DNA from: Maribacter aquimaris
GTDB lineage: Bacteria > Bacteroidota > Bacteroidia > Flavobacteriales > Flavobacteriaceae
Direction of reading: 5' to 3'
Assembly (NCBI RefSeq): GCF_014596745.1
Contig: NZ_JABTCF010000003.1
Coordinates: forward strand, 186,001 to 250,000
DNA: 64,000 nucleotides
The position numbers and the translations under genes were made by a program. The notes below the pieces were generated by a model. That model saw only the letters and a program-made list of their open reading frames with translations. It made no database searches and was not told the origin of the DNA. This document shows, in pieces, positions 1 to 50,404 of this stretch (position 1 is the first letter of the stretch; each line of letters opens with the position of its first letter).

Positions 1-1203
1 TCTGGAATTATTTATCATACGTAACGGATTGGAATAGAAATATTCTTTTCCTTCAAGACTAATTCCTGACAAGCCACTGTTATACAAAACCAATTCGATT
101 ATGTCCGCATATCTTGATTCACCCTTAATACCCATCATACGACTACTGAACATTGCATTACATAAGTTGGCGCAGGTTTCATTATAAGCCGTCATGTTTG
201 GCATCATGTAAGCATCTATAAAGCCTTCTTCTATCATATCCAGATTGGTAGACGCCCCATAATGTGCTTGTCCTACAGCCCCTGTCACATACATTTTTTT
301 TCCTGTAACATTTTCCCACAACTTATCCAAGGCATCTATTAGTGCTTTTTCGCCTGTTTCTGCATAAACATCGGCAGCCCCGGCATAATAATACAATGCC
401 AATACTGCATGGCCAACAGCTTCTTCAGACTCGCGTAAGGGTGTGCGCTCCTGAACCATATCGCCAATAGGATAGCCTTCTGTGGTAGAATCATGTTTGA
501 TTTCAAAGGTTCCACGTCTGTTAATGAACTTCTCCGCCAGTTTCAAATATTTTTTATCATTAACCGTTCTGTAAAGTTCAACCAATCCCATAATTTGAGT
601 TTGATTAAAACCAAATCTTTGATAGTGTTTTGTATCTGGCATGAAATAGGTGTACAACAAATTGGCTTGTTTTACAGCTATATCCAGGAAATTACGTTGA
701 CCCGTCATGCGATAATGAATAGAAGCTGCAATAAACAAATGTCCAAAATTGTACATTTCATGATACTTCCGGTTTTCGAATCGGTCTGCACCTTCTGTAA
801 TTTGAATGTACGTATGAATGTACCCATCTTCTTCTTGTGCCCTACCTATAAGAGCGATATAGTCATCCAATTCTTTTAAAATAGCCTTATCCTTGGTAAG
901 TCCGTAAATGTATGTTTTGGCCTCCATGAATTTGTAGAAATCCCCATCATGCCAATAGAAACCCTTGTGTTCTCCTTCTTTTTCCCCTGCCGCAATTTTA
1001 AAATTGTTCAAAGCATGGCCCACATCACCACAAAGAAGATCCCCCATATAAGGAAGCATTTGCTCTTCTGCGTTTTTTACTTTTTCGGCCCAAAACCCTG
1101 AATTCCATTTACAATCCCCAAAGTTGATGCTCTTTAGTTTAACGTACGGACTCTGCGACGTATTCGTTATAGCCTTGTTATGAAAGTTTGCATCTTTTTT
1201 CAT
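1..1203 (-). CDS. GH127 family glycosidase, candidate 3,6-anhydro-D-galactosidase (C-terminus beyond left edge)
   Basis: The frame is open from an ATG at 1203 to the left edge, giving 401 residues with the C-terminus missing. The sequence has the look of the GH127 (former DUF1680) alpha/alpha-barrel family: YWHDGDFYKF near 83-92, MYNFGHLF near 150-157, MYVTGAVGQ near 304-312, and an ETC triad at 342-344 inside YNETCANLCNAMFSSRMM. In characterised GH127 arabinofuranosidases the Glu and Cys of such a motif bind zinc. Some marine GH127 members instead release 3,6-anhydro-D-galactose from neo-carrageenan oligosaccharides. That role is inferred here from the nearby anhydrogalactose operon. No signal peptide is visible, so the enzyme is probably not exported by the standard route. 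It lies 72 bp downstream of the SMP-30-like gene and is probably cotranscribed with it. Family confidence is high; substrate is inference. Confidence 0.85.
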   Translation of the reverse strand, partial: MKKDANFHNKAITNTSQSPYVKLKSINFGDCKWNSGFWAEKVKNAEEQMLPYMGDLLCGDVGHALNNFKIAAGEKEGEHKGFYWHDGDFYKFMEAKTYIYGLTKDKAILKELDDYIALIGRAQEEDGYIHTYIQITEGADRFENRKYHEMYNFGHLFIAASIHYRMTGQRNFLDIAVKQANLLYTYFMPDTKHYQRFGFNQTQIMGLVELYRTVNDKKYLKLAEKFINRRGTFEIKHDSTTEGYPIGDMVQERTPLRESEEAVGHAVLALYYYAGAADVYAETGEKALIDALDKLWENVTGKKMYVTGAVGQAHYGASTNLDMIEEGFIDAYMMPNMTAYNETCANLCNAMFSSRMMGIKGESRYADIIELVLYNSGLSGISLEGKEYFYSNPLRMINNSR

Positions 1204-1275
1204 ACGTTTTTCTCTTTATAAGGTTGAATCAATGTGAATTACGTTTTGTTGGTGAAATTAATCTTATATTGTTCT

Positions 1276-2319
1276 TTAGTATATTTTTATATATGACAAA
1301 GTATAAGGTTTACTATGTTTGGAATTTATTATTCCTTCTCCAGACATTAAATCAAAATTAGAAATAATGATATTGTTCCCATACACAATTATATCTGCAG
1401 GTTGGTCTATTTGGCCATTTGCTCCATCATTATCATCATAATCCGCAATTAAAGTTACATTACCTTTGGGATCAACCTTTAGGATTTGGTTCTGACAAAA
1501 ACCTGCAACATACATATTATCATTCGAATCGGTATTGATACCATCTATCCCCGATACTTTTGGAACATTTGCAAACAATTCCTCATTTATAACGTTGCCT
1601 TCCTCATCCAAAATTAATTTTATAAGCTCACCATCCCCAAAATCACCAACAAATAATTCACCAGCTTTATTAAATACCAAACCGTCCAAACCCACTTTTC
1701 TATCCGGGTTGATGGTTTCGGTAATGTAAATTAAATTAGAATCAGATTTATCATTCTTAATTAATATGTTCCTCTCTGAAGTTTTAAACCTGTATAAACC
1801 GCTCACATGGTTTTCGGTTCTTATTTTTGGCATGGCGGGTTGCGTTACGTAAACAGCACCATCATGATAGCGAATACCATTAGGTTGCCCCATACCTTCG
1901 GCAACAATTTCAATATTATGATTTCCTTTCCCATCAAAAGTGATGCATAATACCTGTCCTTGGTTCTTGCCTTGGTTGTTACAAACAAACAAACTACCAT
2001 CCGGTGCATAGGCAATACCCATAGGGTTGGAGTTCCTATCCTTTGTAACCCCAGGTATTTCCATAAGTTTGGTGATATTTTTATCCTTATCGATTTTTAC
2101 TAAAATACCAGGCAATGTTTTATCTGCAAAGTTTGGACATGAGAGTACCAAACTCCCATCTGGAGCAATATCAAAAGCATCGGGTGTCGGACAAAAACTA
2201 GGTAACTCAATAAATAGTTTTGCAGGTTTTAAATTTTCCTGTTGTGCATCAACATGGTTTATCCCTATTACCATTAAAATGACAAGGGTAAGCGATTTAG
2301 TATGTTTTAGATAGGTCAT
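1276..2319 (-). CDS. Secreted SMP-30/gluconolactonase-like beta-propeller protein
   Basis: About 347 residues beginning MTYLKHTKSLTLVILMV, a clean signal peptide ending near VDA-QQ. A longer frame extends 17 residues upstream, but those residues precede the signal peptide, so the start at 2319 is preferred. Repeated propeller-blade motifs (FDIAPDGSLVLSC, GIAYAPDGSLFVCNNQG, LDGLVFNKAGELFVGDFGDGEL, IDGINTDSNDNMYVAGF) match the SMP-30/gluconolactonase/NHL type of six-bladed propeller. Proteins of this class often hydrolyse sugar lactones. A periplasmic lactonase acting on an oxidised sugar would suit this locus, but the substrate cannot be read from the sequence. It is followed by the GH127 gene and separated from susD by a terminator hairpin, so it probably has its own promoter. 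Confidence 0.75.
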   Translation of the reverse strand: MTYLKHTKSLTLVILMVIGINHVDAQQENLKPAKLFIELPSFCPTPDAFDIAPDGSLVLSCPNFADKTLPGILVKIDKDKNITKLMEIPGVTKDRNSNPMGIAYAPDGSLFVCNNQGKNQGQVLCITFDGKGNHNIEIVAEGMGQPNGIRYHDGAVYVTQPAMPKIRTENHVSGLYRFKTSERNILIKNDKSDSNLIYITETINPDRKVGLDGLVFNKAGELFVGDFGDGELIKLILDEEGNVINEELFANVPKVSGIDGINTDSNDNMYVAGFCQNQILKVDPKGNVTLIADYDDNDGANGQIDQPADIIVYGNNIIISNFDLMSGEGIINSKHSKPYTLSYIKIY

Positions 2320-2563
2320 GCAGTAATTTTCAATTTTTATTAAAATGCCAGTTATACGAACAATGAACATTGGTTCTTACAACATGAGCTATTTCACATA
2401 TAGAATCAGGTTCCCTAATTTGATCCTTCCACAAATTTATTGAAGTGAGTAAATAAGTGCTTGGTTTGGGGCTTTTCTTGGGAATTTGAAAATGTCCCAA
2501 TAGATAGAACCAAGAGTAGGAAGAATCTTTTCAAAGTACTTGGGAATTCTAAATTAAGATAAA

Positions 2564-2610: not shown

Positions 2611-4326
2611 TCAATAACCATAATTTTGCTCCAAAGAAGCATCCTTATCAATTTCCGTTTGTGGAATTGGCAGGTAATATCTATAATCAAACCAAGGTCT
2701 TGTCACAACAGTATACTCTTCATGATTTAAAGATCCATCAACAGCTTTTGTCCATTTTAATCCTTTAATGTCATATCCCCCGATATGGTCTTGGTTCATC
2801 CATCTTCTTTCATCAAAAAAGTTATGTCCCTCAAAACATAGTTCTATACGTCTTTCTCTTTTAATAGCCTCCAAAAGTTCATCTCCTGCTGCTGTAATTT
2901 CTGGTTGAAGCGCTCTAGTGGAAACTTTGTTGACATACTCACGTGCGGTTGTTTCATCTCCCAATTCATACATGGCCTCTGCATAGTTCAAATAAATTTC
3001 AGCCAATCTGTACATAATATAAGGACGGTCTGCTGAGAAAGTTGTTAAAGTAGAAAGGCTTTCATCTTGAAATTTTCTAATATTATATCCTGTTTTTGAA
3101 GAATGTAATGTATTCCCCAAGCCATTTGGAGAATCTAAACCATCAGGGGTTTCGTCACTTGGATTATCTGCTAATGCATAATCTACCTCGCGATCTCTAA
3201 ACATTGCTCCTTGATAATTCAAATTGGCATAATATCTCATTTCCCTATTCTCATTGGGCTGTGTAGCATCATAACCTCCCGCTGAAGTTGATGTACCATC
3301 AGCCATATTAAATTCCAAAACGAAGTTTAATGTAGGGGAACTTAACCCCCAGCCACCATAACCACTTGGCGATTGTGCCTGGTCGGGCAACGTATTTATA
3401 TCATTCGCCATTTCCGCATATAAGCTTCCATAAGATCTTGCGAATAAAATATCTTGATTTTCGTGCAAAAACAAATTTTGGTATTCCGTTGCATTTGTAA
3501 CAGCAATTAAATCACGAGCACCAACCAAATCAATAACTGCTTTGGCCGCATCAGCCGCATCTTGCCATTTTGTTGTTTTGGTATAATCATAGAGAGGTCC
3601 ATTTGGTACGGTATTTGGGTCGTGTAATTGACTTGCCGCGTACAATAAAGTACGTGATTTAACAGCCAGGGCAGCTAATTTGGTAGCTCTGCCAAATTCT
3701 GAAGCCTCCATGGGCAAAACCGCTGCTGCATTATCTAAATCATCCACTATAAAATCTACGCAATCCTCGAAACTATCCCTTGATACACTAAAGTCATCAT
3801 CCAAACCAAATGTATTTTCAATGATGGGAACGCCGCCATAGTATTTTATAAGATTAAAATAAGTAAAAGCTCTTAAGAATTGCATCTCTGCTTTTAATTG
3901 CGCTGCTTCTTCTGGGTTTTCCTCCATAGCTTCGCTACCTTCGATTTTTTCCAAAAACTCATTGATTAACTTTACATAATCCCAAGAAGTTTCCCATCTA
4001 TTATTAAATGCCAAACCCGCATTACTTGGAGACCATCCACCTCTCATTTTATAAGGATTGTCTAAGTCCTTAAAGTTAAATTTAGCTTCCCAAGATGCAC
4101 CTTCAATACCGATTCTTTGTGTCCACCATTGAGAACGGTTTATAGACCAGCTATCTGTAGTATTATATGCAGTCACTACAACGAGTGCTGCTTGGTTTGC
4201 ATCACCATAAATTGCATCTTCGGTGAAAGAATCGCTCGATTCAGTATCTAAAATATCATCATTACATCCCACTATGGTAAAAATAGCTAGAAGAACAACC
4301 GCGAACTTTATTTCTATATGTTTCAT
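2611..4326 (-). CDS. SusD/RagB-family glycan-binding outer-membrane lipoprotein
   Basis: The start is set at MKHIEIKFAVVLLAIFTIVGC, giving 571 residues. The upstream in-frame ATG at 4362 only adds 12 charged residues ahead of the signal peptide. The lipobox is IVGC. SusD hallmarks are present: an N-terminal TPR-like region (ALVVVTAYN, AEMQFLRAFTYFNLIKYYGGVPII), the conserved YIMYRLAEIYLNYAEAMYELG, and near the C-terminus IKRERRIELCFEGHNFFDERRW. SusD proteins cap the SusC pore and bind incoming oligosaccharide at the cell surface. The gene follows its SusC partner at 43 bp. Clustered sulfatases and anhydrogalactose genes suggest carrageenan-type ligands; the ligand itself is inferred. Confidence 0.93.
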   Translation of the reverse strand: MKHIEIKFAVVLLAIFTIVGCNDDILDTESSDSFTEDAIYGDANQAALVVVTAYNTTDSWSINRSQWWTQRIGIEGASWEAKFNFKDLDNPYKMRGGWSPSNAGLAFNNRWETSWDYVKLINEFLEKIEGSEAMEENPEEAAQLKAEMQFLRAFTYFNLIKYYGGVPIIENTFGLDDDFSVSRDSFEDCVDFIVDDLDNAAAVLPMEASEFGRATKLAALAVKSRTLLYAASQLHDPNTVPNGPLYDYTKTTKWQDAADAAKAVIDLVGARDLIAVTNATEYQNLFLHENQDILFARSYGSLYAEMANDINTLPDQAQSPSGYGGWGLSSPTLNFVLEFNMADGTSTSAGGYDATQPNENREMRYYANLNYQGAMFRDREVDYALADNPSDETPDGLDSPNGLGNTLHSSKTGYNIRKFQDESLSTLTTFSADRPYIMYRLAEIYLNYAEAMYELGDETTAREYVNKVSTRALQPEITAAGDELLEAIKRERRIELCFEGHNFFDERRWMNQDHIGGYDIKGLKWTKAVDGSLNHEEYTVVTRPWFDYRYYLPIPQTEIDKDASLEQNYGY

Positions 4327-4369
4327 CTTTTTGAATTTCTTATTGATTAAGGTCTGATTCATTTTTTAA

Positions 4370-7300
4370 TTAAAAATTAAAATTTAAACCTAACGTAAAT
4401 GATTTTAAAGAAGGATAGGTACTACTTCTGAAACTATTATACCCTTCTGCTTCAGGATCTAATCCTAAATCATATATGTCAGAAAACAGGGTTAACATAT
4501 TATAACCTCTAACATATAATTTAGCTTCTCCAAATTTTAACACATCCTTGGATATGGTATAGCCCAATTCGATTTCTTTCAACCTAAGGTATGAGGCATC
4601 TTGTAAATAGATATCCGCACCTTGGAAATTATCTGGCCCATTTAAACTTGAGCTGTATGAATCTCCAGTTGCATATGCCCTTGGGAATTTGGCATTGGTA
4701 TTTTCAGGCGTCCATCTTTGATTGAATAAATAATCCGGTAATGCTCCATTTCCCTCGAAATATACTTGCATTTTGGCTTCAGCCTGCCCTTGGAACAAGA
4801 AATTGAAATTCCAATTATGATAATCCAATCCACCATAAACGCCATATTGGATTTCAGGTACATTGGAAGAATAAGAGCGAATTCTATCCCCTGCATCAAT
4901 TTTCCCATTACCATCAGTATCTATATAGTAAGGTTCTCCTGCCACTGTACCCGCTAATTTTACAGGTTCAGCATCTACTTGGGCCTGGTTTTGGAAAAGC
5001 CCATTTGTTGGATATACAAGGTAGGAGTCCATTGGGTGTCCTTCTTGTTTAATGGCATCCGCAACATTTTCAGCCTCGTCCATATAGACAATCTCATTTT
5101 TAGCCTGTGTGAAATTAAATCCAAAATTATAACCTAAATCACCGGCTTTATCATTCCAACCTAATTCGAATTCCCAACCATAGTTATCAACTTTACCAAT
5201 ATTTTCTTGTGGTAAGGTTAGCCCTGTATAATCCGGAACGGATGCGTTTCTTGTCACTAAGATATCTTCCCTTTTTTGATAAAAATAATTTAGGTCCCCT
5301 GTCAATTTATTATCAAATAAGGTGAAATTCAACCCTAAATTTTTCATGTCCGCAGACTCCCAAGTGATTGCTTCATTTGCCGCTTCGACCCCTATGCTGG
5401 AATACCCATTATAATATTCGCCACCAAAATTGTAGTAATTAGGCTTTGCCCCAACATTTCCCGCATAATCATATTGTGTTAAATACTGGAATCCGGTAAT
5501 ACGGTCATTACCCATTTTTGCCCAAGAAGTTCTAAGTTTCAATGAATTTATCCAAGAAACATCCTTCATAAAAGACTCCCTGTTTATGGCCCATGAAAGA
5601 GCAACTCCAGGGAAAGTACCAAACCTGTTTTCCGGACCAAAATTACTAGACCCATCATATCTCAAGGTTATATCCACGTAATACTTCTTCATATAATCAT
5701 AGGAAAGTGAACCAAAATAATTCACACGAGCCCATTCATAAGAGGTACCATCAGAAGTTTGGCCATCTGTATCACCAGCAAATAATTCAGAATGTTCAGA
5801 ATCAGGAAAACCTATTTTCTCTACCCAAAAATTACGTTGATCCGATGTGGTTTGTTCATACCCGACAAATCCACTAAAATTATGTTTGTCATTTATAGAT
5901 TTAGAATAATACAATGTAGCATTCAGCATTAACTCATTGTATTTCCAAAAAGATTCAGTTAAGATGTTCTCATTACCATCTTGTGAAAAACCATCTTGTG
6001 AAACATACTCATCAGTACCTTCAAGATAAGTATAAACTGTCCAAGGAGTGTACCATGATTTTTGATCATAATTCATCCTTCTGAATCCTGCAAACCCTTT
6101 AAACTTTAAGCCATCGGTAAGTTTGTGTAGGTCATAATCAAGTGTAAATTTACCCCTTAGGTCAGTATCTATTTTTTTATCCACTCCAGAGTCGTTACTA
6201 GACATGGCAATAGGGTTCAGACCGTTCTCACCACCCCAACCAATTAAACCGTTAGGGTATACGGCAACCTCTGTTGGTGCGTTATTATAAATTTGTTTGT
6301 AAATTGGATTGGTGCCAATACCCGGTTGTAAAGTTTCTCCAAACCTTCCGGAAATATCAACCCCTAGTTTTACATCATCCGTAATTTTTATATCCAGATT
6401 AGATCGTATTTGATTTTGATCAAATTTCAAATCTCCTGATTTATACATTCCTGTTTGGCGAATCATGTCACCACTAACAAAATAATTTACACTTTCATTT
6501 CCACCTGAAATGGATAAGGAAGTTCTTGACTCTGGCGAGCTTTTGGCAAAAGTCTCATCGGCCCAGTCTGTATTTGGATAATTAATAGGATCTGAACCGT
6601 CTGCATACTTAGAGATATCTGCCTGGGAATATAAAGGATCATTCCCATATCTTTCTGCAATTTCATTATTATAAATTGCATATTGTTCAGAAGACATTAA
6701 GCTAGGTGTGGCAGAAAATGAAGAAATTGTATAGGAAGTGGATAAATTTATTTTCGCCTTTCCACTTTTCCCTCTTTTTGTCGTTACCAATATCACACCA
6801 TTTGCTGCCCGTGCACCATAAATTGCAGCTGCCCCATCTTTTAAAACAGTTAAACTTTCAATATCCTGAGGTGCCAAATTCGCGAAAGTTGATGCTGTAA
6901 TCCCATCTATTAATATTAAAGGTGAATTGTTTCCTAAAGTAGATTTCCCCCTAATCAACAATGTGGCATCATTAGCTCCGGGTGTACCACCTCTATCCGA
7001 AATAATCAAACCTGATACCTTACCTGCTAATGATTTCACTAAATCCTTACTACCGGATTTTGCAATGTCCTCTGATTTTAAAGTACTAACCGAACCTGTA
7101 ATGTCCCCTTTTTTTCTAGTGGTATAGCCTAATACCACAACCTCTTCGAGTTGGGAGGCATCTTCAGCCAGGATGACATCAATCGAAGTTTGGTTGCCGA
7201 CAACGATTTCCTGTGTCGCATAACCCACATATGAAATTACGAGTACAGCGTCATCCTGTTCCAAGTCCAATGTGAAATTGCCGTCAAAATCGGTTTGGGT

Positions 7301-9304: not shown

Positions 9305-9351
9305 AATTTTTTATGTCTAAAATCCTGATACCAAGGATTAGGTTAATTGTG

Positions 9352-10032: not shown

Positions 10033-10071
10033 ATGTGTTTAGTATAATTTTCAATATATTAAGTTTGGGGT

Positions 10072-12675: not shown

Positions 12676-13060
12676 GATATTGGTCTTTTCCTCAAGGTTT
12701 TGCCATTGATGCACCTTGAATGGTTTTTTTTCAAAACAATCGATTATGTGGCTTGTCTTCCATGGCGTTTGTTATTGTTTTTATTTGATCTACAATAGAT
12801 TTATAGGGAATTCCCCACCATGTCCCGGCCAGAGAATAATGATTCTCTTTACCACATACATTTTACATTACAAAAGAACAGCAATATGGGGCATGTGCAC
12901 AAACGCATTTTAACCTGCACTTACATTATATTAACAGGTTTTGTATCTTCTGAACATAAAATAGAACAATGCGCATGGAATTTTCATTTTTATTTCTACC
13001 AATGGTATTGATTTAAGGGTATATAGAAATAACAATACATCGTGTTGGTTATGATACTTT
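12676..13060. other. Upstream region of the catabolic operon, no gene seen
   Basis: About 385 bp between the cycloisomerase start and the terminator of the neighbouring sulfatase gene. No believable coding frame is present. It should carry the promoter of the four-gene operon. No TANNTTTG box was found on the minus strand and no clear operator was recognised. Confidence 0.4.
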
Positions 13061-15988: not shown

Positions 15989-16108
15989 TTTATGACAAGT
16001 ATTATCAACAATTTTTAAAACTAAGGGTTTAGCAAATAATACATTACCCAACCTCATTAACAACCCTAATATAGTAATATATTTACAATATATAATAATT
16101 TCAATAGA

Positions 16109-24533: not shown

Positions 24534-28585
<4,052 letters not shown>

Positions 28586-38623: not shown

Positions 38624-38779
38624 ATGAAACTACACTATGTATCCAAAAATCAAAATGCGGTTCTATTAAAAGAATACTTATCTGAATCAAAATAATCAAA
38701 GAAACTAAATGCTTTCGCAATGAAAGAATATAAAACTAATACTCATCATCCAAATTTTAATAAAAAACTAATTATATGA
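38624..38779 (+). other. Two short ORFs in the susC leader
   Basis: A 23-codon ORF (MKLHYVSKNQNAVLL..., 38624-38695) follows AACTAACTCA. A 19-codon ORF (38720-38779, MKEYKTNTHHPNFNKKLII) ends with its TGA inside the ATGA of the susC start. They could be leader peptides that couple translation to susC. They are too short to be trusted as genes. Confidence 0.25.
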
Positions 38780-41864: not shown

Positions 41865-43340
41865 ATGAAAACATATATTAACACAATAAGAACATTAAAA
41901 TACTTTTTTTGTATTTCTATACTGGCAAGTGCCCTTGTTTCTTGCGAAGATGATTTGGAAACCACAGCTTACGGACAACCTGTTGTTGAAGATTTCTATG
42001 AAACTCCCGAACAAGCCGAACAAGCCTTAGTTGCCGCTTATTCCGCTATGGGTGAATTGGCTGGAAGTGATTTTTGGGGTACTATGGGGACAGATATTAT
42101 TTTTGGGGAAATAGGAACGGACGATTTTATCAAGGGAGGCCGTACAGCAGAAAATAATGCGCCTTTATTTCAAAAAGATAAATGGGCCGTTACTACTACG
42201 AATTCTGTTCTCGAACCTCTATGGAACGTAAATTATAAAGGCATTTTGTTTACCAACTTGGTTTTGGAAAATGTGCCAAATATTGTTTTTGAAGATGAGA
42301 ACAGACAAAAGGAAATTTTGGCAGAGGCCCATTTTTTACGCGCATTTTATTATTTCGATTTGGTGAATTCCTTTGGAGGAGTCCCTATAATCGATAGACC
42401 TTTGGCCATTGATGAATATAATGTTCCAAGATCCACAAAAGTTGAATGTTACACATTTATAGAGGATGATTTAAAGGCCGCTATTGCCGATTTGCCATCA
42501 AGGCTTAATAGAGATGCCAGCTATATTGGACGTGCAGATAAAGGTGCTGCCTTGGGTATGATGATGCGCGTATCCTTATACCAAAATAAAATGGGACAGG
42601 TAGAAACCTATGGCAATCAATTATTCGCATTAGGTCATACATTAACACCGGATTACAGTACCATTTTCCAACCTGAGGGCGAGTGGAATTCGGGCTCACT
42701 TTTTGAGATTAATTTCACTACGGATGCCAGTATATTGGGTACAGGTATTCCAAGACGTGTTAATCCTATCAGTAATAAAGCTGGTGGATTTGTAAACGCA
42801 AGGGATGGTTTAAGAAATGAATATGAAGCCAACGATCCCAGGTTTGATGCCACCCTATATTTTGCCAGTCAGGATTACGGTACAGAATGGTTTGTACGCA
42901 AATATGCCTGGGCACCTTATTCAAATTATCAATTCCCTGATATTGGTGGAGTTAACAATAGTGCCAATAACGTAAGGTGCATAAGGCTTGCGGATGCATA
43001 TTTAATGTATGCAGAGGCTATTTACGATACAAATCCAAGTATGGCTGTTGAGTATGTGAACAAGGTAAGAACAAGGGCAAGAGGAACAGAACCACTAACC
43101 GTGGTTCCTAACTTACCAACAACATTAAGCGGACAGGCGTTATTGGATGCCATATACCATGAGAGACGCGTAGAGTTGGCAGGTGAAGGACTTAGGTTCC
43201 ATGATTTGGTAAGAACAGGAAGAGCGGAAGATATTTTAAGCCAATACGGTTTTGATATTAATACACACACGGTTGTTCCATTACCCGCTAACCAAATTAC
43301 ATTATCCGAAGGCGTTTTGACCCAAAACCCGAATTATTAA
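41865..43340 (+). CDS. SusD/RagB-family glycan-binding lipoprotein (second)
   Basis: 491 residues with lipobox LVSC (signal MKTYINTIRTLKYFFCISI). SusD hallmarks: EQAEQALVAAYSAMG, AEAHFLRAFYYFDLVNSFGG, CIRLADAYLMYAEAIYD, YHERRVELAGEGLRFHDLVR, and the terminal LTQNPNY. Binds incoming oligosaccharide at the cell surface with the SusC encoded just upstream. It is followed by a strong hairpin without a T run, probably a processing or attenuation site before the distal sulfatase-gal genes. Confidence 0.95.
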   Translation: MKTYINTIRTLKYFFCISILASALVSCEDDLETTAYGQPVVEDFYETPEQAEQALVAAYSAMGELAGSDFWGTMGTDIIFGEIGTDDFIKGGRTAENNAPLFQKDKWAVTTTNSVLEPLWNVNYKGILFTNLVLENVPNIVFEDENRQKEILAEAHFLRAFYYFDLVNSFGGVPIIDRPLAIDEYNVPRSTKVECYTFIEDDLKAAIADLPSRLNRDASYIGRADKGAALGMMMRVSLYQNKMGQVETYGNQLFALGHTLTPDYSTIFQPEGEWNSGSLFEINFTTDASILGTGIPRRVNPISNKAGGFVNARDGLRNEYEANDPRFDATLYFASQDYGTEWFVRKYAWAPYSNYQFPDIGGVNNSANNVRCIRLADAYLMYAEAIYDTNPSMAVEYVNKVRTRARGTEPLTVVPNLPTTLSGQALLDAIYHERRVELAGEGLRFHDLVRTGRAEDILSQYGFDINTHTVVPLPANQITLSEGVLTQNPNY

Positions 43341-43375: not shown

Positions 43376-43403
43376 TTTCCCATCCCCTTCTTGGGATGGG
43401 AAA
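43376..43403 (+). promoter_or_regulatory. 11-bp perfect hairpin after susD
   Basis: TTTCCCATCCC (43376-43386) pairs perfectly with GGGATGGGAAA (43393-43403) around a 6-nt loop. There is no T run, so it is more likely a mRNA-stability or partial-termination element that keeps susCD transcript levels above the distal genes. Confidence 0.6.
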
Positions 43404-43480
43404 ATATTCATGGGGTCGATATTTTACCCAAAGCCATTATACATATTGAAAATTTAATTTTATCATATCAAATCCAACAT

Positions 43481-45052
43481 ATGAAAAATTCCACGCATTC
43501 CCTATTACTACTATTAACGTCCATTTTACTTCTTGGTTTAAGTTGTAAGGATAAACCGGTAGAAAAGGCAAATGAAGTTGATGCCCCTTCAAAAAAACCA
43601 AATATTGTGGTCATTTATTTGGATGACTTAGGTTATGGGGATATCAGCTCCTATGGAGCAACTGGCCTGCAAACACCAAATATTGATGCTTTAGCGGATG
43701 AAGGTATTAAATTCACCAATGGTTATGCATCTTCAGCAACTTGTACACCGAGTAGATATGCTTTACTTACAGGGGTGTATCCATGGCGAAATAAGGATGC
43801 CAAAATATTACCGGGTACAGCGCCCCTAGTAATAAGTACAGAACAACAAACCTTGCCTAAAATGCTTAAGAAACAAGGTTATCAAACGGCAATCGTTGGT
43901 AAATGGCATCTTGGTTTGGGAACAGGAATGGTCAACTGGAACGAACGAGTATCCCCAGGGCCCAATGAAGTCGGATTTGATGAATCCTACATTTTAGCAG
44001 CCACTCAGGATAGAGTGCCCACAGTGTATATTGAAAATGGGCATGTTGTTGGTCTAGACCCCAAGGACCCCATTTCCGTTGATTACAAAAAGAACTTTGA
44101 AGGTGAGCCTACGGCAATTACAAATCCTGAAATGGTGAAAATGAAATGGCATCATGGGCATAACAATAGTATTGTGAACGGTATTCCCCGCATAGGATTC
44201 ATGAAAGGGGGTGATTCCGCCAAATGGAGTGATATCGATATCGCTGACACTTTCTTGGAAAAAGCCCAAACGTATGTCAAAGAACATAAAGACAAACCGT
44301 TCTTTTTGTATTACGCCTTGAATCAGCCACACGTACCTCGAACACCGAACCCAAGATTTGTCGGAAAATCCGGAATGGGACCAAGAGGGGACGTGATTTT
44401 GGAAGCGGATTGGTGTATTGGCGAATTCATGAAAACCTTGGATAGTGAAGGAATATTGGACAATACACTTGTTATTTTCTCCAGTGACAATGGGCCGGTA
44501 CTCAATGATGGGTATTATGATGATGCCGTAGAGAAATTAGGAAATCATGATCCCAATGGCGGTTTAAGAGGAGGAAAATACAGTCTGTTCGAGGCTGGTA
44601 CAAGAGTACCCTTTATCACCTACTGGAAAGGTAAGATCCAACCAGCAGAATCCAATGCCATTGTTTGTCAAATGGATTTATTGGCCTCCTTGGCCGACCT
44701 GGTCGGTACAAAAGATAATACTACTGATAGTCAAGACATAATGGATGTATTCTTAGGGAAAAGTAAAAAAGGAAGGGATAATCTAATCATTGAAGCTACC
44801 TCTAGAACGGCTTTGCGAAGTGGCGATTGGTTATTGATTCCCGCATACAAAGGCGTCAATTATAGGGAAAAAGTAGGCATTGAAGTGGGTAGCTTTCCCG
44901 AGTTTCACCTATATAATCTGAAAGAAGATATAGGGCAGAAACATAATCTCGCCAAATCCAATCCACAGAAACTTGCTGAAATGATTCAAGAATTTGAAAC
45001 ATTAAGAGGTAAGGACTATAGCCTAAATGTAAAGGACGTAAAGTTTAGATAA
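43481..45052 (+). CDS. S1-family sulfatase lipoprotein, S1_15-like (Gal/GalNAc 6-O-sulfatase type)
   Basis: The start is set at MKNSTHSLLLLLTSILLLGL, giving 523 residues and lipobox GLSC (Cys22); the frame extending 30 codons upstream runs across the susD hairpin and adds no signal. The FGly site is CTPSR (Cys88). The stretch VYPWRNKDAKILPGTAPLVI, GKWHLGLGTGMVNWN, FDESYILAATQDRVPTVYIE and HGHNNSIVNGIPRIGFMKGG recalls subfamily S1_15, where galactose- and GalNAc-6-sulfatases are known. The 6-sulfate preference is tentative. It is 28 bp upstream of the next sulfatase and in line with galT/galK. Confidence 0.92.
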   Translation: MKNSTHSLLLLLTSILLLGLSCKDKPVEKANEVDAPSKKPNIVVIYLDDLGYGDISSYGATGLQTPNIDALADEGIKFTNGYASSATCTPSRYALLTGVYPWRNKDAKILPGTAPLVISTEQQTLPKMLKKQGYQTAIVGKWHLGLGTGMVNWNERVSPGPNEVGFDESYILAATQDRVPTVYIENGHVVGLDPKDPISVDYKKNFEGEPTAITNPEMVKMKWHHGHNNSIVNGIPRIGFMKGGDSAKWSDIDIADTFLEKAQTYVKEHKDKPFFLYYALNQPHVPRTPNPRFVGKSGMGPRGDVILEADWCIGEFMKTLDSEGILDNTLVIFSSDNGPVLNDGYYDDAVEKLGNHDPNGGLRGGKYSLFEAGTRVPFITYWKGKIQPAESNAIVCQMDLLASLADLVGTKDNTTDSQDIMDVFLGKSKKGRDNLIIEATSRTALRSGDWLLIPAYKGVNYREKVGIEVGSFPEFHLYNLKEDIGQKHNLAKSNPQKLAEMIQEFETLRGKDYSLNVKDVKFR

Positions 45053-45080
45053 TAGTAAAACTGTGGTAATATTTAAAAAA

Positions 45081-46535
45081 ATGAAGACCAGATTAATGGT
45101 ACTAACTTTTTCGCTCGCGCTAGCCTCAAGTTCAGGTGCCCAAGAAAAGAAAGAAATTAAACCAATGAATCATCAGCCAAATATCATTTACATTTTAGCG
45201 GATGATATGGGAATTGGAGACTTAGGGACTTACGGACAAAAGAACATCCAAACACCAAATCTTGATAGAATGGCAGGCAATGGAATGAAGTTCACCCAAC
45301 ATTACAGCGGCGCTGCTGTGTGTGCCCCTTCCCGTTCAACTTTAATGACGGGCCAACATACGGGACATACACCAATCAGGGGAAATAGGGGAGCTGGACA
45401 TAATAGGGAAGGTCAAGTACCAATTCCCGCGAATACATTGACGCTTGCCGAAATCTTGAAAGAACAAGGGTATGTAACCGGAATGTTCGGGAAATGGGGG
45501 CTTGGTTTTAATGAAGGAGATCCCAATAATCAAGGATTTGATGAATTTTATGGTTATAATGACCAAAAATTAGCCCATCGTTATTATCCTGCCTACGTAA
45601 ATCATAATCAAGAAAGGGATTCCCTTAAAGGAAACGATTGGACAAACAAAGTCACCTATGCACCGGATAGGATTCAAGAAGAAAGTCTAAAATTCATTGA
45701 GGGGAATAAAGACAAGCCTTTCTTTGCCTACATTCCTTTGGTTTTACCCCATGCAGAGTTAATTTCCCCAAACGATTCAATATTCAAATTATACGATGGC
45801 AGGTTCAAAGAAACCCCATATACTGCAGACAATAAATATACTTCGGATTACGGTCCGAATATAGTAATACATGAATTTGCACCCGTTGAGAAGCCATTGG
45901 CAACCTATGCTTCCATGATAACAAGACTTGATGCCTATGTCGGTCAAATTGTAGATAAAGTAGCGGAATTAGGTCTTGCCGAAAATACCATTATCATGTT
46001 CGCTAGTGATAATGGCCCTTCCTTGGAAGGTGGCACCAATCCCGATTTCTTTAATAGTAACGGACCTTTTAGAGGATATAAAAGAGATTTATATGAGGGC
46101 GGAATCAGGGCTCCCTTTTTGGTTGTTTGGCCAAATAAAGTGAAACCGGGCAGTATAACCGACCATGTATCAACATTTTGGGATGTATTGCCAACGTTAA
46201 CTGAAATCACCAATTCCAAAACCCCCGATTTTATTGATGGTATTTCTTTTCTACCAACATTATTGCAAGATAATACGCAACAACAACACGACTATCTGTA
46301 TTGGGAATACAACATAAAAGAAGGAAGAAAAGCAGTGAGAAAAGGCAATTGGAAAGGTGTTTGGTACAAAATGAATGCAAAGGAACCTGGTTCTTTCGAG
46401 CTTTACCATTTGGCCGACGACGTAGCTGAAAACAATAATGTCGCGGAAAATTATCCTGAAATAGTCACAGAATTAAAACAAATTATGAAGGAGGCCCGTA
46501 CGCCATCAGAACTGTTTCCTTTTAATCATAATTAA
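45081..46535 (+). CDS. Secreted arylsulfatase-type S1 sulfatase
   Basis: The start is set at MKTRLMVLTFSLALASSSGA, giving 484 residues with a signal peptide cut near GA-QE; an in-frame ATG six codons upstream is less likely. The FGly site is CAPSR (Cys81). Motifs NIIYILADDMGIGDLGTYG, MTGQHTGHTPIRGN, GKWGLGFNEG and FASDNGP are intact. The pattern resembles S1_16-type galactose/GalNAc-4-sulfatases, which is tentative. It is the closest paralogue in the window to the sulfatase pseudogene at 32.1 kb. It precedes galT by 42 bp. Confidence 0.92.
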   Translation: MKTRLMVLTFSLALASSSGAQEKKEIKPMNHQPNIIYILADDMGIGDLGTYGQKNIQTPNLDRMAGNGMKFTQHYSGAAVCAPSRSTLMTGQHTGHTPIRGNRGAGHNREGQVPIPANTLTLAEILKEQGYVTGMFGKWGLGFNEGDPNNQGFDEFYGYNDQKLAHRYYPAYVNHNQERDSLKGNDWTNKVTYAPDRIQEESLKFIEGNKDKPFFAYIPLVLPHAELISPNDSIFKLYDGRFKETPYTADNKYTSDYGPNIVIHEFAPVEKPLATYASMITRLDAYVGQIVDKVAELGLAENTIIMFASDNGPSLEGGTNPDFFNSNGPFRGYKRDLYEGGIRAPFLVVWPNKVKPGSITDHVSTFWDVLPTLTEITNSKTPDFIDGISFLPTLLQDNTQQQHDYLYWEYNIKEGRKAVRKGNWKGVWYKMNAKEPGSFELYHLADDVAENNNVAENYPEIVTELKQIMKEARTPSELFPFNHN

Positions 46536-46577: not shown

Positions 46578-47597
46578 ATGATGCAATCACAATTAAAAAC
46601 ACATCCCCATCGACGGTATAACATCCTAACGGGTGAATGGGTATTGGTTTCCCCACACAGAACCAAAAGACCATGGCAAGGTAAAACAGAATCTTCCCAT
46701 AAGAAGGAAGCGGTTACTTATGACCCTGAGTGCTACCTCTGCCCTACCAATACCAGAATCAACGGGGAAATTAATGAGGACTATAAAAACACTTTCGTTT
46801 TTAAAAACGATTTCGGAGCCTTATTGGAAGACACCCCCCTTTTCGATTATAAGGAAGGATTACTCCATGCCGAAGGTGAAAAAGGGGTTTGTAAGGTTAT
46901 TTGTTTTTCCCCCAACCATTCTTTGACCATTCCTGATATGGAGCTAACCGATTTAGTCACCGTGGTTAAAACATGGCAAAAAGAATTCACGGAACTGGCG
47001 AATGCTTCTGAGATCAATTATGTTCAGATCTTTGAGAACAAAGGTGCCATCATGGGATGTAGTAATCCACATCCCCATGGTCAAATATGGGCGCAGCATT
47101 CCATACCAACCGAGATAGAAAAAAAGACGAATACGCAAAAAGCCCATTATCAGAAAGAGGGAACCAGTTTATTGCAAAAATATTTGGAACAGGAACTCGA
47201 GGATGGGTCCCGCATTATCTCACAGAATGACAGTTTTGTGACCTTGGTTCCATTTTGGGCAATCTGGCCTTATGAAGCCATGATCGTACCAAGAAGGCAA
47301 ATGTCCAACATCCTTGGCTTAAGAGTCCAAGAAAGAGAGGATTTCGCACATCAATTAAAAACATTAACACAGAAATACGATGCGCTATTTGACACGTCGT
47401 TCCCGTATTCATCAGGAATACATCAAGCACCTACCGATGGAAAGGAATACAGTGAGTGGCATTGGCATATGAGTTTTTACCCTCCCTTATTACGTTCGGC
47501 AACCATTAAGAAATTTATGGTAGGATATGAAATGTTCGCCATGGCACAACGGGATATTACACCTGAATTGGCGGCTGAACAATTAAAATCTTTGTAA
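46578..47597 (+). CDS. galT: Galactose-1-phosphate uridylyltransferase
   Basis: 339 residues, normal length. The HIT-family catalytic motif SNPHPHGQIWA is present with the His-Pro-His at 165-167, and the zinc-binding CYLCPTNTR near 54-62. Also HRRYNILTGEWVLVSPHRTK at the N-terminus and IHQAPTDG late in the protein. It transfers UMP from UDP-glucose to galactose-1-phosphate in the Leloir pathway. A second ATG directly follows the first. It is 4 bp upstream of galK, so the two are cotranscribed, and its place in the sulfatase operon shows that galactose is a main product of the locus. Confidence 0.97.
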   Translation: MMQSQLKTHPHRRYNILTGEWVLVSPHRTKRPWQGKTESSHKKEAVTYDPECYLCPTNTRINGEINEDYKNTFVFKNDFGALLEDTPLFDYKEGLLHAEGEKGVCKVICFSPNHSLTIPDMELTDLVTVVKTWQKEFTELANASEINYVQIFENKGAIMGCSNPHPHGQIWAQHSIPTEIEKKTNTQKAHYQKEGTSLLQKYLEQELEDGSRIISQNDSFVTLVPFWAIWPYEAMIVPRRQMSNILGLRVQEREDFAHQLKTLTQKYDALFDTSFPYSSGIHQAPTDGKEYSEWHWHMSFYPPLLRSATIKKFMVGYEMFAMAQRDITPELAAEQLKSL

Positions 47598-47601: not shown

Positions 47602-48741
47602 ATGAAAGAAGCAACATTTAATCCAAACAACTGGGATCTAATAGTCGACTCCCCAGGAAGAATAAACATCATTGGCGAACATACAGATTATAATAATGGT
47701 TTTGTGTTGCCGACAGCTATTGATAAAAAAATACAATTCAAATTTAAAAGGAACGATAGTTTACATACCTGTAATATCCTTAGTAATAATTTCAATGCTA
47801 GTTTATCCTTTGATCTTAATACGGTCAGTAAGAGCGACAAACAATGGGAAAACTATATTTTAGGGGTTATCCATGAAATACAACAGTTGACCGATAAACT
47901 TCGGGGTTTTGATTGTGTGTTGGACAGTGACATCCCCGTAGGATCTGGTATCAGCTCGTCCGCTGCCTTGGAATGTGGGTTGGCTTTCGGGTTGAATGAA
48001 TTATTTGATTTAAACCTTTCTAAACAGCAGATTGTAGAATTGTCCCAACGGGCTGAACATAATTATGTTGGGACCAAATGCGGAATCATGGATCAATTCG
48101 CTTCGGTAATGAGCAAAAAAGGCCATGTGATTTTGCTGGATTGTCAATCGTTGGATTATGAATACGTCCCTATTGAAATTGAACCCTATAAACTACTCCT
48201 GTTAAATACCAATGTTTCCCATAATTTGGCATCAGGAGAATATAACATACGAAGAAGTCAATGTGAAAAAGGAGTTGAAATCATTCAACAAAAATATCCA
48301 GAGGTAACCTCCTTAAGGGATGTATCCTTTGACATGTTACAGGAATTCAAATCCGATATCCCTGAAATCGTATTCAACAGATGTACGTATGTTGTTCAGG
48401 AAAAAGACCGTGTTTTAAGCTCTGTCAAAGCCTTGAAAAAATCACAGTTACATACATTAGGGGAATATATGTACCAGACCCATGATGGATTACAAAACCT
48501 GTATGAAGTAAGCTGTCCGGAATTGGATTTTTTAGTTGATTTTTCCAAAGAATACAATGAGGTTATAGGAGCTCGAATGATGGGAGGAGGCTTTGGAGGT
48601 TGCACCATTAATATAATCCATCAGGATGCCGTTGAACATTTTACCCAAAAAGCATCTGAAGCCTACTTTAAAAAATTCAATATAAAACTTACAGGCTTTG
48701 AAGCAATGCCCTGTGAAGGAACCAATATTAAACTAGCATAA
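47602..48741 (+). CDS. galK: Galactokinase
   Basis: 379 residues, GHMP kinase fold. The galactokinase signature PGRINIIGEHTDYNNGFVLP is near 19-38, the ATP-binding GSGISSSAALECGLAFGLN near 114-132, KCGIMDQFASV carries the catalytic Asp, and MMGGGFGGCTIN is the third GHMP motif. It phosphorylates galactose at C1 in the cytoplasm. Gene order galT-galK-symporter with gaps of 4 and 10 bp makes a complete galactose uptake and entry module. Confidence 0.97.
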   Translation: MKEATFNPNNWDLIVDSPGRINIIGEHTDYNNGFVLPTAIDKKIQFKFKRNDSLHTCNILSNNFNASLSFDLNTVSKSDKQWENYILGVIHEIQQLTDKLRGFDCVLDSDIPVGSGISSSAALECGLAFGLNELFDLNLSKQQIVELSQRAEHNYVGTKCGIMDQFASVMSKKGHVILLDCQSLDYEYVPIEIEPYKLLLLNTNVSHNLASGEYNIRRSQCEKGVEIIQQKYPEVTSLRDVSFDMLQEFKSDIPEIVFNRCTYVVQEKDRVLSSVKALKKSQLHTLGEYMYQTHDGLQNLYEVSCPELDFLVDFSKEYNEVIGARMMGGGFGGCTINIIHQDAVEHFTQKASEAYFKKFNIKLTGFEAMPCEGTNIKLA

Positions 48742-48751
48742 ACCAAACATT

Positions 48752-50404
48752 ATGACCACACATTTCCAATTGTTGGATTATTTGATATTCATAGGCTATG
48801 CCCTACTCATTTTAGGGGTTGGACTATGGGTTTCAAGGGATAAGAAGGGACATCAAAAAAATGCCGAGGATTATTTTCTCGCTAGTAAATCATTACCCTG
48901 GTGGGCTATTGGAGCCTCGTTGATCGCTGCCAATATCTCTGCGGAGCAATTTATTGGGATGTCAGGCTCCGGTTTTGCCTTGGGGTTGGCAATAGCCTCA
49001 TACGAATGGATGGGAGCGATAACCTTGATCATTGTAGGTAAGTATTTCTTGCCGATCTTTATCGAAAAAGGACTTTATACCATTCCCGAGTTTGTGGAAA
49101 AACGATATTCCACAAACCTTAAAACCATTTTGGCTGTTTTCTGGATTGGCTTATACGTATTTGTCAACCTGGCATCCGTACTGTATTTAGGATCCTTGGC
49201 CTTGGAAACCATTATGGGAATCCCCATGATCTATGGCGTTATCGGTTTGGCCCTTTTTGCCGCAGCATATTCCTTATACGGAGGGTTATCAGCTGTTGCA
49301 TGGACCGATGTCATCCAAGTGGTCTTTCTGGTACTGGGAGGCTTGGTAACAACTTATTTGGCATTGAATACGGTTTCGGGTGGCGAGGGTATTTTGTCCG
49401 GCCTTAAAACAGTATATGAGGCGGCACCGGACAGGTTTTCCATGATTCTGGATAAATCGAACCCCGAATATAAAAATTTACCCGGTATCGGGGTTCTCGT
49501 TGGAGGGTTATGGGTAGCGAATTTATACTATTGGGGATTCAACCAATATATTATCCAAAGGACATTGGCCGCTAAATCCCTTAAGGAGTCACAAAAAGGT
49601 ATATTGTTGGCCGGTTTCTTAAAATTGATATTGCCGGTAATCGTTGTGGTACCGGGAATAGCTGCTTTCGTCATGGTCAATGACCCAGAAATATTAGCAA
49701 GTTTGGGCGATGCCGGATTAAAGAACCTACCCTCTGTAGGGCAGGCGGATAAAGCCTATCCTTGGTTATTGCAGTTTTTACCAACAGGACTCAAGGGAGT
49801 CGCTTTTGCAGCTTTGGCAGCGGCCATAGTATCTTCATTGGCTTCCATGTTGAATTCAACGTCCACCATTTTTACCATGGATATTTACAAACAGTACATC
49901 AACAAAAATGCAAGTGATAAGGCTACGGTAAATACAGGGAGGATATCAGCCGGGGTTGCCTTGATCATCGCTTGTATTATGGCCCCTTTATTAGGAGGGA
50001 TAGATCAAGCTTTTCAATTTATCCAAGAGTATACCGGTATTGTGAGCCCAGGAATCCTAGCCGTATTCATGCTTGGATTGTTCTGGAAAAAGACAACGAA
50101 TAAAGGAGCCATTATCGGGGCTTTGACCTCTATACCCATTGCAATGTATTTTAAAGTGGCCCCGAAAGGTTGGTCTACAAGTAATTTCTTTGTTGATGTT
50201 CCTTGGATGGATCAAATGGGATATACAGCTGTTTTAACCGCTATCGTCATTGTAATAGCAAGCTTGATACAAAATAAGGGAGCGGATGATGATAAAGGCA
50301 TCCCGCTGACCGGTAAAATATTTAAAACATCTCCTTTATTCAATATTGGGGCTTTTGCAATCATGATCATTCTGACCGTTCTTTATGCCATGCTATGGAA
50401 ATAA
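48752..50404 (+). CDS. Sodium:solute symporter (SSS family), likely galactose/glucose transporter
   Basis: 550 residues with about 14 hydrophobic segments, the SSS size. SGLT-like features: GWGLWVSRDKKGHQKNAEDYFLASKSLPWWAIG-type N-terminus with the AEDYFLA motif, ANISAEQFIGMSGSG, YSLYGGLSAVAWTDVIQVV and YYWGFNQYIIQRTLAAKS, which are seen in sodium/sugar symporters. It would carry galactose across the inner membrane with sodium. Being last after galT and galK supports galactose. A terminator-like hairpin follows at 50548. Confidence 0.9.
   Translation: MTTHFQLLDYLIFIGYALLILGVGLWVSRDKKGHQKNAEDYFLASKSLPWWAIGASLIAANISAEQFIGMSGSGFALGLAIASYEWMGAITLIIVGKYFLPIFIEKGLYTIPEFVEKRYSTNLKTILAVFWIGLYVFVNLASVLYLGSLALETIMGIPMIYGVIGLALFAAAYSLYGGLSAVAWTDVIQVVFLVLGGLVTTYLALNTVSGGEGILSGLKTVYEAAPDRFSMILDKSNPEYKNLPGIGVLVGGLWVANLYYWGFNQYIIQRTLAAKSLKESQKGILLAGFLKLILPVIVVVPGIAAFVMVNDPEILASLGDAGLKNLPSVGQADKAYPWLLQFLPTGLKGVAFAALAAAIVSSLASMLNSTSTIFTMDIYKQYINKNASDKATVNTGRISAGVALIIACIMAPLLGGIDQAFQFIQEYTGIVSPGILAVFMLGLFWKKTTNKGAIIGALTSIPIAMYFKVAPKGWSTSNFFVDVPWMDQMGYTAVLTAIVIVIASLIQNKGADDDKGIPLTGKIFKTSPLFNIGAFAIMIILTVLYAMLWK

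Follow-up and report, generated by a model that had tools for sequence, protein, structure and literature searches.

The window analysed here, a 64,000-nucleotide stretch of the Maribacter aquimaris genome (contig C21:186001-250000), carries most of a polysaccharide utilization locus (PUL) for carrageenan. We favour, with moderate confidence, the reading that this locus joins two carrageenan exo-cascades without a known endo-carrageenase and that the cell scavenges oligosaccharides, having lost the GH150 and GH16 enzymes of sister loci. The locus is real and is largely explained as a variant of the carrageenan utilization locus; what is distinctive here is the tight interleaving of two modules without any known endo-enzyme. 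Carrageenan is plentiful in red algae, and polymer cutters versus fragment eaters shape marine and gut food webs. With its exo-set for two carrageenan classes and without the endo-enzymes of sister loci, the locus is a clean test case of scavenging versus an undescribed chain-cutter. It is also an enzyme list for the complete conversion of carrageenan oligosaccharides.

Two carrageenan exo-sets in one locus

The genome is a 4.86-Mb draft in 27 contigs (tool-estimated completeness, 99.99%). The locus totals ~64 kb, 13 kb of which lie left of the window on the minus strand. An earlier note on this DNA had placed it at positions 1-50404 of the window; the right end stood, at the end of the SSF symporter gene (50404), beyond which are ArsP-like, radical SAM and ARMT1-like genes, and the left start had to be moved to TauE at ~C21:172578. 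The left flank beyond the window holds, in order, an MFS transporter, CRTAC1 (FG-GAP and ASPIC/UnbV), two S1 sulfatases (Sf1 and Sf2), GH167 and TauE. The minus-strand arm (24533 down to TauE) is ~38 kb long, the divergent plus-strand arm (25349-50404) 25 kb, and the gap between them is 24534-25348. Pfam searches of the window found two GH110, two GH2, seven S1 sulfatases (Sw1 to Sw7), two SusCD pairs, a hybrid two-component system (HTCS) and an AraC regulator, with a PfkB kinase, KDPG aldolase, ALDH and enolase-superfamily cycloisomerase at 8216-12714 on the minus strand. All families listed in the earlier note were recovered, GH127 among them, although its gene is cut by the window edge. SusC/SusD pairs, CAZymes and a sensor regulator (Pfam) mark the locus as a Sus-type PUL.

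The proteins of the locus were compared with those of two reference systems, Pseudoalteromonas carrageenovora (NZ_CP027525.1) and plasmid p1 of Flammeovirga kamogawensis (NZ_CP076130.1). The kappa/iota exo-set comprises GH167, GH127, the first GH2 (GH2a), two S1_19 sulfatases, an S1_7-like sulfatase and the Dau genes for anhydrogalactose. The lambda exo-set comprises GH110A (GH110a), the second GH110 (GH110b), the second GH2 (GH2b), three S1_8-like and two 6-sulfatase-like proteins. Counterparts of most of these exo-genes exist in characterised or annotated carrageenan loci, which supports the carrageenan-type substrate that had been proposed for this DNA. In Flammeovirga, one locus holds a GH2, a sulfatase, GH110A, an HTCS, a second GH110, two sulfatases and GH150, and another holds SusCD, two GH127, a GH2, two sulfatases and Dau genes. 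These loci lie on one circular plasmid, ~370 kb apart one way and 270 kb the other way. Identities to Flammeovirga were 67% for Sw2, 57% for GH110a, 41% for the HTCS, 54% for GH110b, 57% for GH2b, 52% for Sw5 and 73% for Sw6 in the lambda set, and 67% for GH127, 57% for GH2a, 64% for Sf1, 58% for Sw1 and 69% for DauB in the kappa set.

In the sections of the papers on which we draw here and below, P. distincta and P. carrageenovora use the GH110 set to degrade lambda-carrageenan (PMC12549532, PMC6262041), and the enzymes named for the P. distincta lambda cascade are two GH150, two GH110, one GH2, three S1_8 and two S1_15 (PMC12549532). Set against that description of the cascade, the window appears to hold the same exo-set minus GH150, the assignments of Sw2, Sw5 and Sw7 being less certain. 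Since Flammeovirga has two separate loci and the GH110 set serves lambda-carrageenan elsewhere, two substrates served side by side are a simpler reading than one hybrid. The earlier note had invoked a single hybrid substrate to explain GH110 beside GH127, a need that falls away with the same genes in two distant Flammeovirga loci. The modules are interleaved in Maribacter, with GH110a-Sw2 on the kappa arm and the kappa-type GH2a heading the lambda arm, so that use on hybrid chains is still conceivable.

Known endo-carrageenases are missing

No GH150 match was found in the M. aquimaris genome with a query that finds the 27-29% identical GH150B type elsewhere. The GH82 query also gave no match, although it picked up a 35% identical control in Flammeovirga. 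Searches of 84 kb around the locus at E 0.1 revealed no remnant of GH150, GH82 or a GH16 carrageenase. Thus, the earlier view of an exo-acting locus with no known endo-hydrolase was borne out, and for GH150 and GH82 it now extends to searches of the whole genome. The genome has six GH16 matches, the best of which scored 100 bits (27.8%) to any of 28 GH16 open reading frames (ORFs) of Dau loci. These 28 ORFs were found with two P. carrageenovora GH16 queries, and many are near copies of one another; 27 of them score at least 179 bits against another member or against a P. carrageenovora GH16, the exception being one ORF of G397 (77 bits).

We then considered where relatives keep these enzymes. 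When whole genomes were searched, GH150 was encoded in 16 of 17 GH110A relatives (68-80% identity); the exception was Algibacter mikhailovii (G423), in which a 16-bit GH150 match was counted as none. This count leaves out L070 (a 7-kb contig with no GH150 in view), L071 (from the same assembly as L069), L073 and L074; L071, L073 and L074 carry GH150 in the locus. Among 79 loci from 95 confirmed GH110A relatives, GH150 lay within 10 kb of GH110A in 31 (28 of the 70 with full flanks). A GH150 match was absent in 10 of 22 hand-picked records, M. aquimaris included; these records were picked to favour loci without GH150 beside GH110A, so that 10/22 is no rate, and L094 (see below) is not among them. 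The GH150-free records are M. aquimaris, Kriegella sp. EG-1, Pricia, two Arenibacter, Zobellia uliginosa DSM 2061, Z. amurskyensis, an uncultured Flavobacteriaceae and two Flavobacterium. Two other Zobellia among the 22 have a GH150 match, and DauB is encoded in all 22.

For the kappa/iota side, Dau loci were typed I or II by DauB identity in a survey of 29 of 36 DauB places, namely our own region and 28 others (G381, G238, G138, G352, G067, G149 and G004 were left out). GH16 was present in all 10 type-II Dau loci with GH127 (176-456 bits). The GH127, kinase, aldolase and DauA of M. aquimaris are nearest to type II, and its GH110A falls among GH150-bearing relatives; the simplest history is thus that both chain-cutters were lost.

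Two divergent GH16s are encoded elsewhere in the genome, at L021:6770-7654 and 9146-10003 (contig C22, ~106.8-110.0 kb), in a region that also has a SusD-like, a SusC-like, an enolase-superfamily and an MFS-like protein. One of them scores about the same against kappa-carrageenase as against porphyranase structures (71-64 bits), and no sulfatase was found within 20 kb around the pair. This region is possibly a galactan locus of its own.

An FG-GAP/ASPIC protein of 1,120-1,135 residues is encoded directly upstream of a sulfatase-GH110A pair at L093:4856-8263, L102:4952-8314 and L107:4889-8272, that is, in one Arenibacter and two Zobellia loci among 11 loci listed; the other eight lack it. The genomes of L093 and L107 are without GH150 and that of L102 has it. 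A structure prediction of this protein had a mean predicted local distance difference test score of 28.6 and was not used.

Kappa/iota-type enzymes and a probable route into the cytoplasm

The GH127 gene (window 1..1203, minus strand, continuing to C21:185209) encodes 664 residues at contig C21:185209-187203 and was assigned to the alpha-1,3-(3,6-anhydro)-D-galactosidase type (DagA; Pfam GH127, 308.9 bits). Its match in Flammeovirga is a GH127 of the Dau locus, and among the 28 other Dau loci, 18 have a GH127 that is 63-84% identical to it. It has neither a signal peptide nor a hydrophobic N-terminus, nor room for one (668-residue open frame), and is therefore probably cytoplasmic. The left-flank GH42-like protein is GH167 (485 bits to 9whd and 480 bits to 6ptm). 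A simple lipobox pattern is matched by GH167, by both GH110s and by six of the nine sulfatases. The lipobox on GH167 and the signal-free GH127 together suggest that neocarrabiose is probably made outside the cytoplasm. Judged from these signals and from gene order, it is probably imported by the MFS transporter encoded between CRTAC1 and GH127 and then cleaved in the cytoplasm.

Sw1 (13260..14684, minus) is an S1_19-type 4-O-sulfatase, with 69.9% identity to a P. carrageenovora sulfatase and the Flammeovirga match noted above (58%, kappa set). We take the former to be p0034, PCAR9_p numbers having been matched to NZ_CP027525.1 by gene order; p0034 is an iota-carrageenan G4S-sulfatase (PMC6262041). 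GH2a (25349..28585, plus) is a LacZ-type beta-galactosidase (Pfam) of the kappa set, whose GH2 counterpart in the Flammeovirga Dau locus is 56.6% identical. The closest structure to Sf1 (L003:12596-14302) is 6hhm (303 bits), which we take to be an S1_7 enzyme, and the S1_7-like (cgsB) assignment of Sf1, whose Flammeovirga match is a kappa-set sulfatase, follows from it.

The synteny with carrageenan loci that the earlier note had proposed to search for was found. P. carrageenovora PUL7 has GH167 (67% identity), CRTAC1 (46%) and SGL (43%) in the same order, and the left arm reads GH167-S1-S1-CRTAC1-(MFS-GH127)-SGL-TonB receptor as there; gene sets are matched in Flammeovirga. The secreted SGL/NHL propeller protein (1276..2370, minus; Pfam SGL) is 42.8% identical to Pc_SGLa of P. 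carrageenovora.

The propeller proteins bear on a question raised in 2019, namely whether such proteins stand in for GH127 in Pseudoalteromonas. Three lipid-anchored 6- or 7-bladed propeller proteins were proposed as the missing anhydrogalactosidase of that genus (PMC6923384). By gene order and fold we equate these three PS47 candidates (EU509_08830, _08835 and _08875) with CRTAC1/SGL, and the P. carrageenovora genes that would fit them are two CRTAC1 and one SGL. In the 29 flavobacterial Dau regions, CRTAC1 occurs in seven and SGL in two, every time with GH127. CRTAC1 and SGL were therefore rejected as simple GH127 replacements, though a small sample of related genomes makes this weak evidence; their constant place beside GH127 speaks for another or an additional role. 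The counterpoint is that P. carrageenovora has CRTAC1 and SGL but no GH127 (PMC6262041, in the parts used). At L094, an SGL borders the end of the retrieved sequence, which shows no GH127. In the open-access literature, we found no paper that joins CRTAC1, or ASPIC, FG-GAP or SMP-30, with carrageenan.

The anhydrogalactose operon is of D-type and of mosaic origin

DauB, the 3,6-anhydro-D-galactonate cycloisomerase (11521..12714, minus), scored 707 bits to 5olc, the structure of Zobellia DauB (PMC5698469), versus 169 bits to the L-anhydrogalactonate cycloisomerase 5xd7. DauA, the 3,6-anhydro-D-galactose dehydrogenase (10072..11508, minus), scored 493 bits to 6pnu/6pop, which come from the work in which DauA of Pseudoalteromonas was characterised (PMC6923384). 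On these matches the anhydrogalactose enzymes are D-type, not L-type. An L-anhydrogalactose (agar) substrate, which the earlier note had named among the findings that would overturn its carrageenan proposal, was rejected on the cycloisomerase scores.

The KDPG/KDPGal aldolase (9352..10032, minus; Pfam Aldolase, NCBIfam eda above cut-off) would fill the DauD role, and a PfkB-type kinase (8216..9304, minus; Pfam PfkB), predicted to be a 2-keto-3-deoxygalactonate kinase, stands in the place of DauC. Its match to the NCBIfam KDPG aldolase/sugar kinase fusion NF041633 (444 bits) is under the cut-off of 700, and no BLAST match (E 1e-5) to DauC of the two reference loci was found. The kinase is 85-86% and the aldolase 75-80% identical to those of four type-II Dau loci.

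DauA and DauB, whose genes are 12 bases apart, belong to different lineages. DauB shares 72-81% identity with its counterparts in 10 type-I loci and 53-58% with those in 18 type-II loci, a split that is true by construction of the types; the DauA result is independent of it, identity being 71-83% for 17 of 18 type-II loci and 48-52% for all 10 type-I loci. In trees, DauB grouped with seven type-I rows with moderate support (82/89; type split 87/81), and DauA lay inside the type-II group (100/99), with long branches flagged by the tool among distant DauA rows. Further, the AraC regulator sides with type I (three Zobellia-genus loci) and the kinase and aldolase match type II. Locus G354 (coordinates as in the Maribacter vaceletii genome) has the opposite DauA/DauB combination. 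Thus, operon genes have passed from one lineage to the other, which is to be expected if the two process the same sugar.

Lambda-type enzymes and a third GH110 type

GH110a (21223..23052, minus) is of the exo-6-sulfo-alpha-galactosidase type GH110A (705 bits to the GH110A structure 9beh); the catalytic DD is conserved, and R462 aligns with R460 of the 6-sulfate pocket. In an alignment of 106 GH110 proteins, the pocket position (R460 in the numbering of the paper) was Arg in all 82 A-like proteins, Glu in P. carrageenovora GH110B and three others, and Ile, Ser, Thr or Ala in seven others. The 13 GH110b-like proteins all had Pro, 12 of them within the motif Pro-Val-Glu-Ser. GH110b (36702..38606, plus) has this motif at the site of the GH110A Arg and the GH110B Glu; with 32-34% identity to GH110B and Pro at the gate position, it is not of the GH110B type and represents a third type. 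Our guess is that it acts on an unsulfated or differently sulfated end.

Among the S1_8/S1_15 set, Sw3 and Sw6 are clear, and Sw2, Sw5 and Sw7 were assigned through more distant matches. Sw3 (28779..30305, plus; S1_8-type) is 45% identical to a P. carrageenovora PUL8 sulfatase, and the PUL8 sulfatases are S1_8 (PMC6262041). The S1_8-like Sw2 (23070..24533, minus) scored 289 bits to the SGSH structure 4mhx, and its Flammeovirga match (67%) adjoins GH110A. Sw5 (32570..34111, plus; S1_8-like) is 51.5% identical to a Flammeovirga lambda-locus sulfatase and 34% to a P. carrageenovora PUL9 sulfatase taken as S1_8. Sw6 (43391..45052, plus) is an S1_15-type 6-O-sulfatase, 72.7% identical to a Flammeovirga lambda-locus sulfatase and 47-49% to two P. 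carrageenovora PUL9 sulfatases taken as S1_15. Sw7 (45063..46535, plus), 6-O-sulfatase-like, scored 369 bits to 7an1/7ana, which we take to be S1_15 (7ana is named N-acetylgalactosamine-6-sulfatase), and is 59% identical to a Flammeovirga sulfatase ~10 kb outside the GH2-GH110 run. Sw4 (30688..32064, plus) is S1_16-like (258.8 bits to 9fo1, the kappa-carrageenan sulfatase S1_16). GH2b (34123..36459, plus; Pfam), the beta-galactosidase of the lambda set, is 56.7% identical to the Flammeovirga lambda GH2 and 26.6% to a P. carrageenovora GH2.

The arm ends with GalT (46578..47597, plus; NCBIfam above cut-off), GalK (47602..48741, plus; NCBIfam TIGR00131 above cut-off) and the SSF sodium/sugar symporter (48752..50404, plus; Pfam, 52.5% to the P. 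carrageenovora PUL9 symporter). Galactose goes to these Leloir enzymes, GalT and GalK, so the locus has one sugar-acid route and not the two that had been claimed for it.

Three further observations concern these enzymes. The listed TTG start of Sw6 (43391-43480) puts ~30 residues ahead of a typical signal peptide, and an internal ATG is the likelier start. A sulfatase at L028:9130-10698 (C21, ~314 kb) has an N-terminus very similar to that of Sw6 and is 72% identical to the Flammeovirga sulfatase that Sw6 matches; it looks like a recent duplicate of Sw6 outside the locus. Many lambda-type GH110A loci (L057-L061, L064, L066 and others) encode a GH42/GH167-like protein 36-39% identical to our GH167, possibly a GH167 branch for lambda-type chains.

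Transport, regulation and distribution

The first SusCD pair lies on the minus strand (SusD lipoprotein, 2611..4362, Pfam SusD_RagB; SusC, 4370..7600, Pfam Plug and CarbopepD_reg_2) and the second on the plus strand (SusC, 38776..41853, Pfam Plug and TonB_dep_Rec; SusD lipoprotein, 41865..43340, Pfam SusD). The CgrA-like AraC regulator (15098..16063, minus; Pfam HTH_18) is 69-70% identical to AraC of three Zobellia-genus Dau loci. The cgrA/cgtA/cgtB part of the kappa/iota core is represented by this AraC match and by the presence of SusCD pairs, not by cgtA/cgtB orthology. The HTCS (16819..20952, minus; Pfam) has its match in the Flammeovirga lambda locus. The C-x-[PSA]-x-R maturation motif is intact in all nine sulfatases, the seven of the window and the two of the left flank. 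PF03781 (FGE-type maturase) has six matches in the genome; the family is broad, so these matches demonstrate no maturase.

Base composition gave no transfer signal (38-39% G+C in the locus versus 35-41% in its surroundings). At the thresholds used, GH110A and DauB were both missing from two congeneric genomes, which makes the locus an accessory one within the genus. Including M. aquimaris, GH110A-type matches (E 1e-100) occurred in 19 of 299 family genomes, two of them at only 448-493 bits, and DauB matches (E 1e-120) in 35 of 397. In Kriegella aquimaris, two Aureibaculum and a Maribacter (matching coordinates), a single contig carries both GH110A and DauB, separated by ~17-40 kb; side-by-side placement is therefore not unique.

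Two observations lie outside the locus. A separate cluster at window 57119-63390, with a Usp-family protein, GH26-like, GH43, MFS and GFO/IDH oxidoreductase genes, is probably a xylan/mannan-type locus unrelated to carrageenan. At C1:937819-938405, two adjoining partial S1 sulfatase matches in short frames look like a broken sulfatase gene.

Proposed pathway and alternative explanations

The gene set is present as described, and the activity at each step is predicted from relatives. On the kappa/iota side, oligosaccharides would be imported by SusCD and stripped of sulfates by the S1_19, S1_7-like and perhaps S1_16-like sulfatases; GH167 would release neocarrabiose, to be carried inward by the MFS transporter and split by cytoplasmic GH127 into D-anhydrogalactose and galactose. 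D-anhydrogalactose would then yield pyruvate and glyceraldehyde-3-phosphate via DauA, DauB, the PfkB kinase and the aldolase. On the lambda side, S1_8-like 2-sulfatases and S1_15-like 6-sulfatases would unmask the end residue, GH110A and GH110b would remove alpha-1,3-galactose and GH2b beta-1,4-galactose, and galactose would be used through SSF, GalK and GalT. Long chains would be cut by other bacteria, GH150 and GH16 having been lost from this lineage.

Several points weigh against this scavenger reading. GH16 occurs in only two of nine type-I Dau loci with GH127, and 15 of the 29 Dau regions have no GH16, GH82 or GH150 at the cut-offs used, so that endo-free regions are common. The carrageenases of Zobellia sit elsewhere in its genome (PMC5698469), and a gene could lie in a gap of a 27-contig draft. 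No nameable carrageenan pathway contains a close characterised relative of GH110b, Sw2 or Sw7, and the abstract of PMC12549532 gives ten glycoside hydrolases versus the five named in the sections used for the exo-set comparison. Further, Z. galactanivorans uses lambda-carrageenan without GH150, for which an undescribed lambda-carrageenase was proposed (PMC6262041); by the same token the strain could itself degrade the polymer if its genome encodes, outside the locus, a divergent GH16 or an endo-enzyme from a family not yet described. We regard this as a real if unlikely alternative. The ten GH150-free records among the 22 hand-picked ones, M. aquimaris included, and the divergent C22 GH16 pair with its SusCD region fit it, but no candidate of a known family lies inside the locus, the best GH16 reaches only the 100 bits given above, no sulfatase accompanies the C22 pair, and clustering of GH110A with GH150-bearing relatives points to loss rather than replacement. 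Growth on intact lambda- and kappa-type carrageenan through an undescribed endo-carrageenase family, shared with GH150-free Zobellia, Arenibacter, Kriegella and Pricia, seems to us somewhat less likely still; its candidates would be the two C22 GH16s and the ~1,120-residue FG-GAP/ASPIC propeller protein of Arenibacter/Zobellia loci.

That all enzymes jointly degrade one hybrid carrageenan mixing alpha-galactose and anhydrogalactose units is improbable. The interleaving of the modules would suit it, and PMC13168452 deals with hybrid carrageenans, in that case kappa/iota hybrids, as substrates; against it stand the two separate Flammeovirga loci and the kappa/iota and lambda pathways of P. distincta, which share no enzyme according to the sections of PMC12549532 used. 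We give very little credence to an action of the GH110/S1_8-like arm on an alpha-1,3-galactoside other than lambda-carrageenan, for example a differently sulfated galactan: GH110a retains the 6-sulfate-pocket Arg and matches the lambda enzyme at 705 bits, and the exo-genes taken together look like those of the lambda cascade, even though the GH110b pocket differs from both GH110A and GH110B and Sw4 is closest to a kappa-carrageenan sulfatase. We therefore retain oligosaccharide scavenging as the favoured explanation.

Comparison with known carrageenan systems

The kappa/iota PUL and regulon of Zobellia galactanivorans (PMC5698469) resemble our locus in DauA, DauB, the aldolase, GH127, S1_19 and putative S1_7-like sulfatases, an AraC regulator, SusCD import and endo-enzymes outside the conserved core. 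Unlike Zobellia as described there, our locus unites SusCD, GH2, GH167, CRTAC1/SGL and the whole GH110 set, its kinase is of PfkB type and its DauA is of another lineage. The lambda-carrageenan PULs of P. distincta U2A and P. carrageenovora (PMC12549532, PMC6262041) share GH110A, a second GH110, GH2 and S1_8 and S1_15 sulfatases with it, the sulfatases clearly for Sw3 and Sw6 and less certainly for the others, and P. carrageenovora PUL9 also has a galactokinase and a sodium/sugar symporter (PMC6262041). In contrast to these Pseudoalteromonas loci as far as they are described in the sections used, ours is without GH150, its second GH110 is not of GH110B type, it has SusCD and an HTCS, and its lambda set is interleaved with kappa genes.

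Bacteroides carrageenan PULs from ruminants and humans, or their relatives, share GH110, GH127, GH167, GH2 and several S1 subfamilies (PMC13168452). They carry GH16_17 and some carry GH82 and GH150 (PMC13168452), none of which was found in our locus. Flammeovirga p1 was the better of the two references for Sw2, Sw5, Sw6, Sw7, Sf1, GH110a, GH110b, GH2a, GH2b, the HTCS, GH127 and DauB; unlike M. aquimaris, it has two separate loci, and its plasmid carries GH150 and a GH82-like match.

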